Shown: positions 24,873-30,232 of the stretch, piece by piece
How positions within the stretch are numbered: the first letter of the stretch is position 1
How the letters are laid out: each line of letters starts with the position of its first letter
NCBI GenBank assembly: GCA_015296085.1
Contig: DVDT01000071.1
Coordinates: 1 to 61,998 of the forward strand
DNA: 61,998 bases
Direction of reading: 5' to 3'
Source: Trichormus sp. M33_DOE_039
Lineage (GTDB): Bacteria > Cyanobacteriota > Cyanobacteriia > Cyanobacteriales > Nostocaceae
Notes under the pieces: model-generated
The model's database searches: none
What the model was told of the DNA's origin: nothing
Seen by the model: only the letters and a program-made list of their open reading frames with translations
Translations under genes and position numbers: made by a program

Positions 24873-25859
24873 ATGGCAGACAATCAATGGCAGTTTCAAG
24901 AACGGTTGCAGAAATATCAAGGATACAGAGGTGAACACGCCACTATCTTTGCAAATCGGCAAGTTGTAGATTTTGCTCCAGAAGTAGGAATTAGTGAGCC
25001 TGTAGGTACAGCTTATGCTATTAGATGCGAATATGATGAAGCAGAAAACGCCATAGATAAATTAGCAAAACTGCTCCAAGATGACCAAGCATGTAATCTG
25101 CAAGCTTTGGTTTTTGGTGCTTGGGATGGAGAGATGCCAAGTGGTAGTTCCCAGACTCTAATTGAGGCTTTAGTATCTGCTAAAGATCAGCTGACCAGTT
25201 TGCAAGCATTGTTTATTGGTGATATCCACTACGAAGAAAACGAAATTTCGTGGATTGTTCAGAGTGATATTAGTCCCATTTTAGAGGCTTATCCTAACTT
25301 AGAAGTATTGCAAGTCCGGGGCGGTGATCGTTTAGCATTTAGTCCCTTTGTTGGACATGATCATTTAAAAGCACTGATTATCGAAACTGGTGGTTTAAGT
25401 AGTGCAACAATTAACCAGATTTGCGCTTTGAACTTGCCAAACTTACAGCATTTGGAATTATGGCTAGGTTCAGATAACTATGGTGGTGATTCTGAAATTG
25501 CAGATTTAAATCCTATATTAGTTGCACAGAAATTTCCGAATTTAGTTTATTTAGGGTTGCGGAATAGTGAATATTCTGATGATATTGCAGAAGGTATAGT
25601 GCGATCGCCCTTACTCAACACCATCAGAATTCTCGACTTATCAATGGGAACTCTCAGCGATGCGGGTGCAGAATTGCTGCTGAAAAATCCTGTTGTACAG
25701 CAATTAGATATTCTCAATTTATCTGAAAATTACCTTTCAGAAGAAATTATTACTTTTGTGGAAGAACAAAAGGCAAATTTTCCTGTTCAAGTGATCATGA
25801 ATGGGCAAAGAAAGGATGAATACGACGAGGAATCTCGGTATTGCGCTGTTGCAGAATAA
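24873..25859 (+). CDS. STM4015 family leucine-rich repeat protein
   Basis: The 328-residue protein has an N-terminal region (1-70) and several degenerate leucine-rich repeats (about 130-310; LPNLQHLELWL, FPNLVYLGLRN, LNTIRILDLSMG, QQLDILNLSEN). The acidic tail ends ESRYCAVAE. The name comes from the family of Salmonella STM4015. Role unknown. It is the first gene of the STM4015-STM4011 cluster, 87 bp before the ATP-grasp gene, and could be a scaffold or a modified substrate. Confidence 0.85.
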   Translation: MADNQWQFQERLQKYQGYRGEHATIFANRQVVDFAPEVGISEPVGTAYAIRCEYDEAENAIDKLAKLLQDDQACNLQALVFGAWDGEMPSGSSQTLIEALVSAKDQLTSLQALFIGDIHYEENEISWIVQSDISPILEAYPNLEVLQVRGGDRLAFSPFVGHDHLKALIIETGGLSSATINQICALNLPNLQHLELWLGSDNYGGDSEIADLNPILVAQKFPNLVYLGLRNSEYSDDIAEGIVRSPLLNTIRILDLSMGTLSDAGAELLLKNPVVQQLDILNLSENYLSEEIITFVEEQKANFPVQVIMNGQRKDEYDEESRYCAVAE

Positions 25860-25946
25860 GTTTGGGGACTGGGGATTGGGTAAGTCAACCAGAATTATTC
25901 CTCATCTCCCTTGTCTTCTTAACCAATATTGACACCACATGAGTGA

Positions 25947-27101
25947 ATGGTTAACTTTGTGATCATCGCCAACTCCGAAAATCGTCGGGTTGGCTTTATG
26001 CAACAAGCACTCTTCAATTGCGATTTACCACTTGCAACCGTTGTCTCCTATGCAGATTTGATTGCGGGTAAAGAAACGTTGGAACAATTCCAAGCACCTC
26101 ATACTATGATTCGGTTTGAGTCCCCAGAGAAAAATTTCGAGGTGGAGAAAGCCATAATTGCGGCTGGTGCGGAAGTTCCAGATGCAGGGAATCAACAATG
26201 TATTAGTGCTGAAGCTGCGGCTAATTTAGTATTTGATCAAGGGCGGATTCTTTATCCGCGACAGTGGTATTTAGGTTGGCGATATTTACTTAATAAATGG
26301 GAAAAGCAACTGTTATCACCAGTGATGAACCATCCCCATGATATTAGTGTGATGTTTGATAAGCCATTGTGTAGCGATCGCTTTGCTCGTCACCATATCC
26401 CAATTCCGCGTTCTTTGGGGATAATTCACAATTATGAGCATTTACGAGAACAGATGCAAATTCAGGAGTGCGATCGCGTATTTATTAAATTATCTCACGG
26501 TTCTGCTGCCTCTGGAGTGATTGCATACCGGACTAATTTTCATAGAGAATCAGCCATCACCACCGTCGAACGAGTTCACCACAATGGACAAACTCTACTT
26601 TATAACTCTCGTAAAATTCGTCACTATACCAACCACCAAGAAATAGCCGACATCATTAATATATTGACTGCTGAAGGTGTGCAAGTAGAAGCATGGCTTC
26701 CCAAAGCCCAAATTCAAGGACATCCCTTCGATGTGCGTGTAGTCGTCATTAATGGAGAAGCACAGCATATAGTAGTCAGATTAGGCAAAAGTCCCATGAC
26801 TAATCTACACCTAGGTAACGAACGGGGAGATACAGCAGAATTTTTAGCCAAAATCGGAGATGAGAATTGGGAGAAGATGAAACGAACCTGTGAAGCCGTA
26901 GCAGCTTTATTTCCCAATAGCTTGTATTGCGGAATTGACTTATTAATTTTCCCCGACTTTCGTCGTCACGCCATTTTAGAAATCAACGCCTTTGGTGATT
27001 TAATACCTGGGATTTTTTGGCAAGGTTTAGATACTTATACAAGTGAAGTAAAAGCAATATTGAACAGACAAGGGGGACAAGAGGGAAATTTTTCACTATG
27101 A
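25947..27101 (+). CDS. STM4014 family ATP-grasp protein
   Basis: The 384-residue protein shows ATP-grasp motifs: MFDKPLCSDRFARHHIPIPR near residue 132, VFIKLSHGSAASG near 183, FDVRVVVING near 262 and LEINAFGDLIPG near the C-terminus. Such enzymes ligate carboxylates to amines or other nucleophiles through acyl phosphates. Substrate unknown. Its stop overlaps the next start by ATGA. Confidence 0.85.
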   Translation: MVNFVIIANSENRRVGFMQQALFNCDLPLATVVSYADLIAGKETLEQFQAPHTMIRFESPEKNFEVEKAIIAAGAEVPDAGNQQCISAEAAANLVFDQGRILYPRQWYLGWRYLLNKWEKQLLSPVMNHPHDISVMFDKPLCSDRFARHHIPIPRSLGIIHNYEHLREQMQIQECDRVFIKLSHGSAASGVIAYRTNFHRESAITTVERVHHNGQTLLYNSRKIRHYTNHQEIADIINILTAEGVQVEAWLPKAQIQGHPFDVRVVVINGEAQHIVVRLGKSPMTNLHLGNERGDTAEFLAKIGDENWEKMKRTCEAVAALFPNSLYCGIDLLIFPDFRRHAILEINAFGDLIPGIFWQGLDTYTSEVKAILNRQGGQEGNFSL

Positions 27102-27895
27102 ATATGAATCAAATCGTTGGGACACACGACATAGTATTTATAACCTTCGATACTCTCCGTTATGATGTTGCAATCGACTTGTTAGCACAAGGACGCACCC
27201 CCAACTTAGCCGCAGTCTTACCGAAAACTGGCTGGGAAGAACGCCATTCCCCAGGAAATTTTACTTATGCTGCACACCATGCTTTTTTCGCAGGCTTTTT
27301 ACCCACACCAGTTAAACCTGGAACACACTCCAGATTATTTGCTTTGGGGTTTGAAGGTAGCACAACCACAACTGAAGCCACTTGTGTCTTAGAAGGTTCT
27401 AATATTGTGAGTGGATTAGCCGCCAAGGGCTACCATACAGTTTGTATTGGTGGTGTCGGCTTTTTCAACAAACTCAACCCCTTGGGAAACGTCTTACCTT
27501 CCTTATTTGCTGAAAGCTACTGGAGTAGAGAATTAGGTGTTACCAATCCCAACTCCACAGAAAATCAGGTGACATTAGCGGCCAAAATTATTACGGAAAC
27601 AGCTAAAAATCAACGCCTATTTTTATTCATCAATATTTCCGCACTGCATCAACCAAACTACTTTTATCTCCCCGACGCGATAACAGACACCATTGCTTCC
27701 CACGCTGCGGCCTTGGAATATGTAGATAAACACCTAAGCAGACTCTGGAAAGCACTCCAACAACGCGCCTCCATCTTTTGCATTCTTTGTTCAGATCATG
27801 GTACAACCTATGGCGAAGATGGCTACACAGGCCATCGCCTCAGCCACCCCATAGTATGGACAGTTCCCTACGCACAATTCATCCTACCCAAATAA
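27098..27895 (+). CDS. STM4013 family hydrolase (alkaline phosphatase/sulfatase fold)
   Basis: The 265-residue protein has the metal-dependent hydrolase fold: Asp18 (TFDTLRYD), a nucleophile-region SPGNFTYAAHHAFF at 51-64, and SDHG at 232-235 followed by His246 and His250 (GHRLSHP). Family members may hydrolyse phosphate or sulfate esters. It overlaps the ATP-grasp gene by four bases and lies within the STM40xx cluster. Confidence 0.82.
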   Translation: MNMNQIVGTHDIVFITFDTLRYDVAIDLLAQGRTPNLAAVLPKTGWEERHSPGNFTYAAHHAFFAGFLPTPVKPGTHSRLFALGFEGSTTTTEATCVLEGSNIVSGLAAKGYHTVCIGGVGFFNKLNPLGNVLPSLFAESYWSRELGVTNPNSTENQVTLAAKIITETAKNQRLFLFINISALHQPNYFYLPDAITDTIASHAAALEYVDKHLSRLWKALQQRASIFCILCSDHGTTYGEDGYTGHRLSHPIVWTVPYAQFILPK

Positions 27896-27966
27896 CACCC
27901 TATTTATACATATCTGCGCGTGGAAAATTCTCACAATCTAACTCCACAAAACCAACCATCTCAAAT

Positions 27967-29316
27967 ATGCTCACCACCAAACCTCTAAAACAATTCTTAA
28001 AACAATCTCCCTATCAAGCCTACGTCTACTCTTACCCCCATAAAACAGCCTATCGACCCCTCAATCCACCCATCAACCTTACCGAACTTTGGACACAACA
28101 AGATAAACAAGCACTATTTCTCTACATCCACATTCCGTTTTGTGAAATGCGTTGTGGATTTTGTAATTTATTCACTACCGTCACCCATAACGAAGACTTT
28201 GTTACACAATACATCCGCACCATGCAACGACAAGCACAAAGAGTTAAAACTGCATTAGGAGAAGCATCCTTCGCCAGATTTGCGTTAGGTGGTGGAACAC
28301 CAACCCAGTTACCCGTACACCACCTAGAAACAATACTCAATATAGCTGAGGAAACGATGGGTGCTAATTTGCAGCAAATTCCTGTGTCCGTCGAAATGTC
28401 TCCAGAGACAGCCCATAAAGATAAATTACAACTATTGCGCGATCGCGGTGTAGATCGAGCTAGTATTGGCGTACAAAGTTTCATCGCATCAGAAGTTTTA
28501 GCCACCCAACGCCGCCAAACTACCCCCCAAGTAGAAGCCGCACTGACAAGAATGCGTGCAGCTGGGTTTCCCACAATTAACATTGACCTTATTTACGGAC
28601 TACCCAGTCAAACCGTAGAGACATGGTTAAAATCAATACTTGCTGCATTAAAATTTCAGCCAGAGGAAATTTATCTATATCCCTTATACGTGCGACCCCT
28701 CACAGGTTTAGGATGCTCAGATAAAGAATGGGATGATAACCGTATATCATGTTACCGCGAAGGGCGATCGCTCCTCCTCTCCGAAGGCTACACCCAAGTA
28801 TCCATGCGAATGTTCCGACGTAGAGAAATTAAACAAGAAATAAATTCTCTCGTGTCTCCCTCATCTCCCATCTACTGCTGTCAGTCCGACGGTATGCTGG
28901 GGTTAGGTTGTGGCGCACGTTCTTACACAGAAACTCTACATTATTCCAATGAATATGCTGTGGGTTCTCAAGAAATCCGCGACATTTTGCAGGCATATAT
29001 GCAAACACCCGATGAAACTTTCGACTACGCCACCTATGGTTTTCAATTAAATATCGAAGAACAACGTTGTCGCTACATTTTATTGTCTCTTTTGTCTGAT
29101 GAAGGCATAAATTTCATCGCTTACCAACAAAGATTTCAAAGCGATATCTATTATGATTTCCCCGAACTAATACAACTCATAGATTTGGAATTAGCAACGC
29201 CAGCAGAACAGAAATTAACTTTAACTGCCAAAGGAATGGAACTTTCTGACAGCATTGGTGCTTGGTTGTTCTCAGAACAAGTTAATCAACTAATACAAAC
29301 CTACAATCTCAAATAA
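27967..29316 (+). CDS. STM4012 family radical SAM protein (HemN-like)
   Basis: The 449-residue protein resembles oxygen-independent coproporphyrinogen oxidase-type radical SAM enzymes. The cluster motif is CEMRCGFC with Cys59, Cys63 and Cys66, preceded by FLYIHIPF; the GGGTPT motif follows near residue 106. I start at the ATG at 27967. A longer frame from 27778 would overlap the upstream gene by 118 bp and adds low-complexity sequence. Confidence 0.85.
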   Translation: MLTTKPLKQFLKQSPYQAYVYSYPHKTAYRPLNPPINLTELWTQQDKQALFLYIHIPFCEMRCGFCNLFTTVTHNEDFVTQYIRTMQRQAQRVKTALGEASFARFALGGGTPTQLPVHHLETILNIAEETMGANLQQIPVSVEMSPETAHKDKLQLLRDRGVDRASIGVQSFIASEVLATQRRQTTPQVEAALTRMRAAGFPTINIDLIYGLPSQTVETWLKSILAALKFQPEEIYLYPLYVRPLTGLGCSDKEWDDNRISCYREGRSLLLSEGYTQVSMRMFRRREIKQEINSLVSPSSPIYCCQSDGMLGLGCGARSYTETLHYSNEYAVGSQEIRDILQAYMQTPDETFDYATYGFQLNIEEQRCRYILLSLLSDEGINFIAYQQRFQSDIYYDFPELIQLIDLELATPAEQKLTLTAKGMELSDSIGAWLFSEQVNQLIQTYNLK

Positions 29317-29371
29317 ACTCTTGCTTCTGCGCTGCTGCATAAACTTTCTTCAGCAACACCTAAATTGAACT

Positions 29372-30232
29372 ATGCACATTACAATTCTCTATCGCGGTTC
29401 TTTAATCAGTTGCAACTATGGTTGTGAATATTGCCCTTTCGCTAAAAAACAACAGTCAGCCGCAGAATTAGCAATTGATAGACAAGAAGTAGAAAAATTT
29501 GTTGATTGGATTGCTGAAAATTCACAGCATGAATTTTCAGTTTTATTTACACCTTGGGGAGAAGCATTAATTCATAAATGGTATCAACAGGCATTAATTA
29601 GATTAACTCAAATGCCTCATGTGAGTAAAGCCGCTATCCAAACTAATCTTTCCTGTAAATTAGATTGGCTCAAAAAATGCAACCAAGAGAAATTATCATT
29701 ATGGGCAACGTTTCATCCAGAGTGGGTGAATTGTCATAGCTTCCTATCGCAATGCTTAGAATTAAATCATCTTGGCGTTAGTTTTAGTGTGGGAGTTGTA
29801 GGTTTTCCCCAATTCAAAGCACAGATTAATTATCTCCGCCAGCAGTTACCAAATAATATTTACTTATGGATTAATGCAGTGAAAAAAGAACTGCCAAATT
29901 TATCGGATGAAGATAGAGCCTTTTTTCAAGATATCGACCCATTCTATGAATTAAATACCCAACATTATCCCAGTCTAGGTAAAACTTGTCGCGCTGGTAA
30001 ATCATTAATTTCTGTTGACGGTGAAGGGACGATGAAACGCTGCCACTTTATCAAAGCACCGATTGGCAATATTTATGCACATGATTGGGAAACAGCACTA
30101 TTTGAAAGACTGTGTATTAATGAAACCTGCCACTGTCATATAGGTTATGTACACCTTGATTATTTGGAATTAGAGCAGGTATTTGGTGACGGCATTTTAG
30201 AGCGTATTCCTCATAATTGGCATTATAATTGA
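29372..30232 (+). CDS. STM4011 family radical SAM protein
   Basis: The 286-residue protein has a CNYGCEYC radical SAM motif (Cys14, Cys18, Cys21) and extra cysteines near the end (Cys206, Cys224, Cys248, Cys253, Cys255), consistent with an auxiliary Fe-S cluster site as in SPASM-type enzymes. A FTPWGEAL segment replaces the usual GGEP. It is the last gene of the cluster, 55 bp after the HemN-like gene. Confidence 0.82.
   Translation: MHITILYRGSLISCNYGCEYCPFAKKQQSAAELAIDRQEVEKFVDWIAENSQHEFSVLFTPWGEALIHKWYQQALIRLTQMPHVSKAAIQTNLSCKLDWLKKCNQEKLSLWATFHPEWVNCHSFLSQCLELNHLGVSFSVGVVGFPQFKAQINYLRQQLPNNIYLWINAVKKELPNLSDEDRAFFQDIDPFYELNTQHYPSLGKTCRAGKSLISVDGEGTMKRCHFIKAPIGNIYAHDWETALFERLCINETCHCHIGYVHLDYLELEQVFGDGILERIPHNWHYN

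Follow-up and report, generated by a model that had tools for sequence, protein, structure and literature searches.

We analysed a 61,998-nucleotide contig of the cyanobacterium Trichormus sp. M33_DOE_039 (DVDT01000071.1; this whole stretch is referred to as the window) and found that five of its genes, STM4015-STM4014-STM4013-STM4012-STM4011, form a conserved set in which the leucine-rich repeat (LRR) protein STM4015 carries a C-terminal tag ending in glutamate (Glu). The gene set and the tag are both firm observations. The tag is probably the attachment site of a chemical group, and ligation at the terminal Glu of STM4015 is likely, at about one chance in two. All five genes lie on the + strand at 24873-30232 in a genome of 7.0 Mb, and each product exceeded its curated NCBIfam cut-off (5/5), which we used, model by model, to define family membership. 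A first-pass annotation had described five consecutive genes on one strand, with ATGA coupling of the ATP-grasp and hydrolase genes; the family scores and the overlap at 27098 confirmed this arrangement.

To define the tag, we used 127 distinct full STM4015 open reading frames (ORFs) with a score of at least 120 and a stop codon present, taken from 91 loci and 20 further loci (loci and genomes are cited by our L and G labels) and excluding the window protein. These relatives share a layout consisting of a conserved LRR body, an acidic stretch that varies in length and sequence, and the motif R-[YF]-x-[AS]-[VIL]-x-E immediately before the stop codon. The last residue was Glu in 121 of the 127 ORFs, as it is in the window protein, and 100 of the 127 matched the strict motif. 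Within the 121 Glu-ended tails, positions -7, -6, -4 and -3 carried 2.7-3.5 bits of information each, against less than 1.3 bits at positions -8 to -30. As controls, terminal Glu was found in 5 out of 337 ORFs of the other four cluster families and in 63 out of 2263 unrelated ORFs of at least 250 amino acids (aa). Between the window and a congener (G039), the seven tag codons differed synonymously only, whereas the linker differed in its residues. The first-pass annotation had pointed to the tail ESRYCAVAE and regarded the LRR protein as a possible scaffold, sensor or modified substrate; because the alignment of C-termini was strongly positive, a substrate or carrier role, in which the tail would be modified, is now favoured.

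A DNA pattern for the tag matched 96 times in 99 genomes from the actinomycete order that includes Streptomyces anulatus, with 76 matches at STM4015 ends and 20 elsewhere. Eleven of these 20 had a true stop codon, comprising 7 in the 45 STM4015-positive genomes and 4 in the 54 negative genomes. Five of the 7 sites close open frames of 31 codons or fewer and two close alike frames of 120 codons; no other tagged protein was recognised, as none of these seven stop-ended sites in STM4015-positive genomes was judged to be a gene.

In an AlphaFold2 model of STM4015 (mean predicted local distance difference test [pLDDT] score 88.6), most of the LRR body scored above 90 and the tail 55-65. The best PDB match of the model was 2ra8 (33% identity; Foldseek 9.6e-21, phmmer 3e-45), a solved relative from Bacteroides fragilis (Q64V53) that is recorded as an 'uncharacterized protein'. 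The N-terminal parts of the LRR proteins vary: a WGR domain is present in a planctomycete protein (L041 14993-16426) and a Bacteroides protein (L023 5879-6949), and a cyanobacterial protein (L012 9618-10871) has a HEAT match slightly below the Pfam cut-off. One cyanobacterial cluster (G123, L012 9618-18313) contains four STM4015 paralogues, one of which lacks the tag carried by the other three.

The gene next to STM4015 encodes a predicted ATP-grasp ligase, STM4014. Foldseek searches with its AlphaFold2 model (pLDDT 92.7; alignment of 24 rows) returned as the best match 3vpb, which is ArgX with LysW and Glu (1.1e-12), followed by the graspetide ligase PsnB and then by RimK and LysX; RimK 4iwx had the highest target-normalised template modelling (TM) score (0.75) of the 50 matches listed. 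Since TM scores normalised by the model were only about 0.5-0.6, STM4014 has a related fold without being a close relative of these matches. A profile of the family gave three matches among PDB sequences, RimK (5zct, 1.7e-4) being the sole ligase and the third match an inositol-phosphate kinase. Residues K139, K181, D331 and N347 were invariant in 72 out of 72 rows and E345 was present in 71; their catalytic roles would follow from the predicted fold.

We propose that STM4015 is a folded LRR protein whose flexible acidic arm closes with a C-terminal Glu tag. STM4014 would use ATP to activate a carboxylate of the last Glu and attach to it, through its amine, an amino acid or another small molecule. 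STM4012, STM4011 and STM4013 would make or alter the joined group, before its attachment or once it is on the protein. The outcome could be a group bound to the protein or, as in the LysW/ArgW pathways, a small molecule assembled on a carrier protein. We assign a probability of about 0.5 to this proposal as a whole, that is, ligation at the STM4015 Glu by STM4014 with the group made or altered by the other three enzymes; we infer the ligation, and likewise the roles and order of STM4011, STM4012 and STM4013.

The system that works most similarly is that of LysW and ArgW. Passages of PMC10433800 describe how LysX and ArgX couple the amine of a substrate to the gamma-carboxyl of C-terminal Glu54 in the EDWGE tail of LysW. 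The systems have in common a carrier that ends exactly in Glu (121/127 relatives and the window protein) and a RimK-fold ATP-grasp ligase, as predicted, encoded with the carrier (adjacent in 68/71 loci), and ArgX bound to LysW is the best match of the STM4014 model. By contrast, LysW and ArgW are small zinc-binding carriers, whereas STM4015 is an LRR protein of 328 aa; the tail is RYCAVAE here (consensus R[YF]x[AS][VIL]xE) and EDWGE there, EDWGE being absent from all listed STM4015 tails; the GSWGR motif of LysX occurs in none of the 72 STM4014 rows; and two radical SAM (S-adenosylmethionine) enzymes and a phosphoesterase-like protein replace the lysine and arginine enzymes. Because the EDWGE tail and the GSWGR motif both fail, we did not class the system as LysW/LysX. 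RimK, which according to sections of PMC10092738 adds Glu at the C-terminus of ribosomal protein S6, likewise shares the ATP-grasp fold and a C-terminal acceptor, but STM4014 falls under the RimK family cut-off, its presumptive target is an LRR protein and three further enzymes accompany it. By the tests made, the system is a member of neither of these families nor of the graspetides.

The graspetide ligases PsnB and MdnC share their fold with STM4014. These ligases act on Glu carboxylates of a peptide, and graspetide cores contain a conserved Ser, Thr or Lys acceptor with a Glu or Asp donor. The second place of PsnB in the fold search, together with the presence of an aromatic residue and Glu in the tail, would suit a crosslink within the tail that joins Glu to Tyr or another side chain, as in graspetides or, as we take it, pyrroloquinoline quinone (PQQ). 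However, the STM4015 tag has no conserved Ser, Thr or Lys acceptor, so we dropped a graspetide ring; the proposed acceptor here is a folded protein. The aromatic residue was Phe in 20 out of 121 tails, showing that a Tyr hydroxyl is not required, and a PQQ-like Glu-Tyr crosslink was dropped on this ground. Overall, we consider a crosslink within the tail very improbable. Two peptide systems provide looser parallels. Pearlin systems use a tRNA-dependent ligase. As in the STM4015 proposal, pearlin chemistry takes place on a group attached to the C-terminus of a scaffold (TglA, TmoA; parts of PMC9303977), although the scaffolds there are short peptides. In mycofactocin systems, a radical SAM gene accompanies a peptide whose C-terminal motif is strongly conserved (portions of PMC3023750), but that peptide is short and STM4015 is a folded LRR protein; the term ATP-grasp is absent from the main text of that paper.

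The remaining three proteins would supply the chemistry on the joined group. For STM4013, Pfam gave Sulfatase as the best match (38.8 bits, cut-off 25) and Phosphodiest at 24.2 bits (cut-off 23), in line with the earlier label of an alkaline-phosphatase/sulfatase-fold hydrolase. Among 27 matches to PDB sequences, the top two were nucleotide pyrophosphatases and most others were sulfatases; 2gsn was also among the matches. Residues D18, T56, D233, H234 and H250 were conserved in 79 out of 79 rows, fitting an alkaline-phosphatase superfamily member in which, as we assume, the Asp/His set binds metal and the Thr serves as the nucleophile. Sulfatases carry Cys or Ser at that position, and we preferred a phosphoesterase over a sulfatase because it was Thr in all 79 rows. 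NUDIX-type neighbours of STM4013 paralogues also point to phosphate chemistry. In other Streptomyces clusters, one such paralogue (L019 7998-9327) adjoins an annotated NUDIX gene, and the neighbours of another (L113 447-3838) look by eye like NUDIX, radical SAM and kinase proteins.

As the first-pass annotation had noted, the cysteine architectures of the two radical SAM enzymes are not alike: STM4012 has three invariant cysteines and STM4011 three plus five (rows with more than 85% profile cover and more than 200 bits). In STM4012, a CxxxCxxC motif (C59, C63 and C66) was present in 79 out of 79 rows, and searches of PDB sequences matched HemN (1olt, 8.6e-54) and the radical SAM methyltransferase NocN (1.6e-34). 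The HemN motif CxxxCxxCxC includes a fourth cysteine, yet residue 68 of STM4012 was Leu in all 79 rows, and the protein scored 144.5 bits against a hemN cut-off of 324.95; it thus fails the test for a HemN/coproporphyrinogen oxidase. In STM4011, CxxxCxxC was accompanied by C206, C224, C248, C253 and C255 in 89 out of 89 rows. The first half of the SPASM motif is CX9-15GX4C, and STM4011 has it as C206-x12-G219-x4-C224 (G219 in 88/89). The second half differs, being C248-x4-C253-x-C255 rather than the CX2CX5CX3C given in parts of PMC3023750. STM4011 also matched SkfB (6efn, 3.2e-4), chiefly over its C-terminal part. In a Bacteroides plasmid (L023 8331-9896), STM4011 has a C-terminal extension that looks HAD-like by eye, and in a Salmonella plasmid (L020 10910-11644), a Cof-type HAD hydrolase gene overlaps STM4011.

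We searched for each family separately in the 99 actinomycete genomes. All five families exceeded their cut-offs in 44 genomes, exactly one did so in 3 (STM4015 in G448, STM4012 in G494 and STM4011 in G534) and none in 52; STM4015, STM4014, STM4013, STM4012 and STM4011 were found in 45, 44, 44, 45 and 45 genomes, respectively. Pairs with STM4015 gave hypergeometric P values from 1.6e-27 to 7e-26, a calculation that ignores genome relatedness. A scan of species genomes with the STM4011 alignment identified at least 575 relatives. The complete set was present in 64 of the best 80 loci, and in 47 of 53 when only loci with 20 kb or more of available sequence were counted. The five families are therefore supported as a real, co-inherited unit. 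Every enzyme here comes from a large superfamily, as would be expected of unrelated enzymes that are adjacent by accident and act each in a known pathway, but the counts in both samples contradict such an accident, which we regard as scarcely credible. The earlier suggestion of a modification pathway is upheld in that the families are inherited as one pathway, one that would modify the tail.

Complete sets occurred in ten phyla among the STM4011-anchored and plasmid loci (Cyanobacteriota, Actinomycetota, Planctomycetota, Acidobacteriota, Myxococcota, Chloroflexota, Deinococcota, Bacillota, Pseudomonadota and Verrucomicrobiota, as named in the records, several of which are metagenome bins). The set is sporadic in Cyanobacteriota, where STM4015 was detected in 4 out of 291 genomes at E<=0.001 and passed the cut-off in 3, and rare in the phylum of S. 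anulatus (3 out of 149 genomes). STM4013 matched 16 plasmid records, 9 of which we examined; six of these carried all five families, L023 lacked STM4012, and L019 and L022 had STM4013 only in the stretch covered. The STM4013 of L023 is a remnant only. In Escherichia coli, no blastn-level match to 27098-29316 was detected.

STM4014 and STM4015 were same-strand neighbours in 68 of the 71 loci in which both scored above 100 bits (exceptions L026, L029 and L073), and the pair stayed together apart from 4013-4012-4011 in L039, L044, L056, L057 and L090. Three planctomycete loci (L038, L041 and L047) contained divergent LRR ORFs with other tails, seven out of eight of which still ended in Glu (GDYE twice, EME, ADIE, GAFE, GDWE and GDIE). 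The same loci had the three lowest STM4014 scores of 71, and their ligases formed a 100/100 clade with a branch length of 1.87. By contrast, the other enzymes of L038 and L041 had ordinary score ranks (66 and 68 of 88 for 4011, 25 and 62 of 79 for 4012, and 60 and 63 of 78 for 4013), and L047 ranked 27 for 4012. Compared with L038/L041, L039 showed 74-77% identity in 4011, 65-66% in 4012 and 72-76% in 4013 but only 34-36% in 4014; compared with L050, which has the common tail, the values were 66%, 58%, 73% and 72%, respectively. Acceptor and ligase thus differ as one cassette in this planctomycete lineage, and the core enzymes do not track the tail. Ordinary core enzymes at loci with divergent tails fit a role in which these enzymes recognise the group once it is attached, or produce it beforehand.

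The same result bears on an alternative in which no product is built or released and the LRR protein is instead switched on or matured. The place of RimK in both searches, as the only ligase among the sequence matches and the top target TM among the listed fold matches, and the resemblance of the C-terminal part of STM4011 to the peptide maturase SkfB would suit maturation, and so would the lack of any recognised release enzyme among the recurrent neighbours, a list polluted by shadow ORFs. However, the tails of L038 and L041 are strongly different and yet their 4011, 4012 and 4013 are ordinary, which would be unexpected if the enzymes read the tail. We consider maturation unlikely. Another unlikely alternative is that the tail is an unmodified docking tag through which STM4015, as a scaffold or sensor, binds partners such as STM4014, with the enzymes acting on a free small molecule. 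Tails are kept in G448 without the enzymes, STM4015 paralogues distant from the cluster retain an intact tag, and ATP-grasp proteins that look catalytically dead adjoin tagged STM4015 at second loci. Against docking, the strongest constraint falls on an exactly C-terminal Glu, and the accompanying ligase has a fold for which the closest solved relatives target Glu carboxylates; the active-site residues of the ligase are invariant.

Several observations weigh against ligation of a group to the terminal Glu by STM4014. The lack of a recognised release enzyme and the missing GSWGR motif are two of them, and STM4014 reached only 30.9 bits against the RimK family model (TIGR00768, cut-off 143.4). 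Its fold matches include ligases of free small molecules at slightly weaker values (D-Ala-D-Ala ligase 2.5e-10, DcsG 4.5e-10). Terminal Glu was absent from 6 of the 127 STM4015 ORFs. Five of these are cyanobacterial (one each in L012, L026 and L027, two in L036) and the sixth is from an actinomycete (L073); the L073 ORF and one of those in L036 stop early in the profile. G448 has two STM4015 genes with intact tails and none of the four enzymes over cut-off. In nine actinomycete genomes, a weak ATP-grasp match adjoins a second tagged STM4015 (L104-L108, L122 and L123), and in the four such proteins that were aligned, both conserved Lys residues were absent (4/4) and the Asn was absent in three, so that at these loci the tail may be used for binding. 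The planctomycete contrast also has its limits. Between L044 and L043, whose tails are of the common kind, identity is 32% in 4014 but 56%, 48% and 66% in 4011, 4012 and 4013, respectively, so STM4014 evolves fast generally and the contrast describes one lineage rather than a law. The planctomycete LRR body changed along with the tail, making effects of tail and body inseparable, and for L047 there is neither a 4013 match nor a ranked 4011. In G448, one orphan tagged STM4015 is followed downstream by a gene for a trypsin-like peptidase (L109 1891-2826).

More tentatively, and with odds somewhat below even, the system may be an undescribed, widespread platform for protein-tethered chemistry. 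The terminal Glu of LRR proteins that vary in their N-terminal parts would then bear an unknown small molecule made by the two radical SAM enzymes and the phosphoesterase-like enzyme, which could be a new cofactor bound to the protein or a product built on the carrier. Acceptor and ligase would together be an interchangeable cassette, and the other three enzymes a core that stays constant. The conserved C-terminal Glu narrows an open-ended question to which mass is on which residue. If ligation is true, carrier-protein biosynthesis would extend beyond small zinc proteins and peptides to include large repeat proteins, and two radical SAM enzymes would gain a defined substrate.

Open-access full-text searches, whose coverage leaves out most subscription journals, yielded no functional study of the five families. 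STM4013.S or STM4015 appear in tables of two Salmonella papers, and the word PRK08208 occurs in PMC11964587. The terms STM40 and LRR are absent from PMC4431377, STM4 and LRR from PMC8939145, and STM4 from PMC9062424 and PMC3023750. The NCBIfam names of the five families consist of a locus tag and an enzyme class only. What is new here is the conserved C-terminal Glu tag of STM4015 relatives.

Feature positions are given in Table 1. The listed ORF of STM4012 (27778-29316) begins at a TTG at 27778, within STM4013; we set the start to the ATG at 27967 because relatives align from there. Upstream of the five genes is a gene for NDH-1 subunit 4 of the NAD(P)H-quinone type, and downstream, on the opposite strand, is a response-regulator gene. 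In a tree, the STM4014 of the window clusters with named cyanobacterial loci.

Table 1. Positions of the features discussed, in window coordinates unless a locus or record is named
Feature	Position	Strand	Basis
STM4015, LRR protein, 328 aa, proposed acceptor/carrier	24873..25859	+	NF038076 307.9 bits, cut-off 275
C-terminal heptapeptide RYCAVAE, proposed attachment tag with terminal Glu	25836..25856	+	stop codon 25857-25859
STM4014, RimK-type ATP-grasp ligase, 384 aa	25947..27101	+	NF038074 418.7 bits, cut-off 175
ATGA stop-start overlap, STM4014/STM4013	27098..27101	+	sequence
STM4013, alkaline-phosphatase-superfamily hydrolase, Thr at nucleophile position, 265 aa	27098..27895	+	NF038075 434.1 bits, cut-off 250
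STM4012, HemN-like radical SAM enzyme	27967..29316	+	NF006067 610.3 bits, cut-off 380
STM4011, radical SAM enzyme, SkfB-like C-terminal cysteine domain, 286 aa	29372..30232	+	NF038073 415.4 bits, cut-off 200
DUF6745 protein and small partner	L015 3168-4632, L016 4504-5829, L018 11009-12306, L021 11028-12349, others		
STM4011 matches in phage collection	OR850900.1 2861-3688; AFYI01000005.1 19141-19968		

Clustering of recurrent neighbours was affected by the shadow ORFs, and only one result was checked beyond it: in 37 out of 91 loci, the surroundings of the cluster include both a DUF6745 protein and a small partner of about 100 aa, and a 38th locus has the small protein alone. The pair spans several phyla, and both proteins have conserved C-termini. 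We set both aside as further substrates, since the DUF6745 protein ends in ET, QT or EA in 37 out of 37 cases and its partner ends in Asp in 37 out of 38. A role in anti-phage defence was also dropped, as PADLOC gave only weak radical SAM matches for 2 out of 7 proteins (PDC-M51A 1.1e-8; viperin 1.6e-5, 2.8e-4 and 0.007). In a phage collection, STM4011 matched 2 out of 50,697 records, both from Salmonella and at 34% identity, and these matches are probably host DNA in the records.

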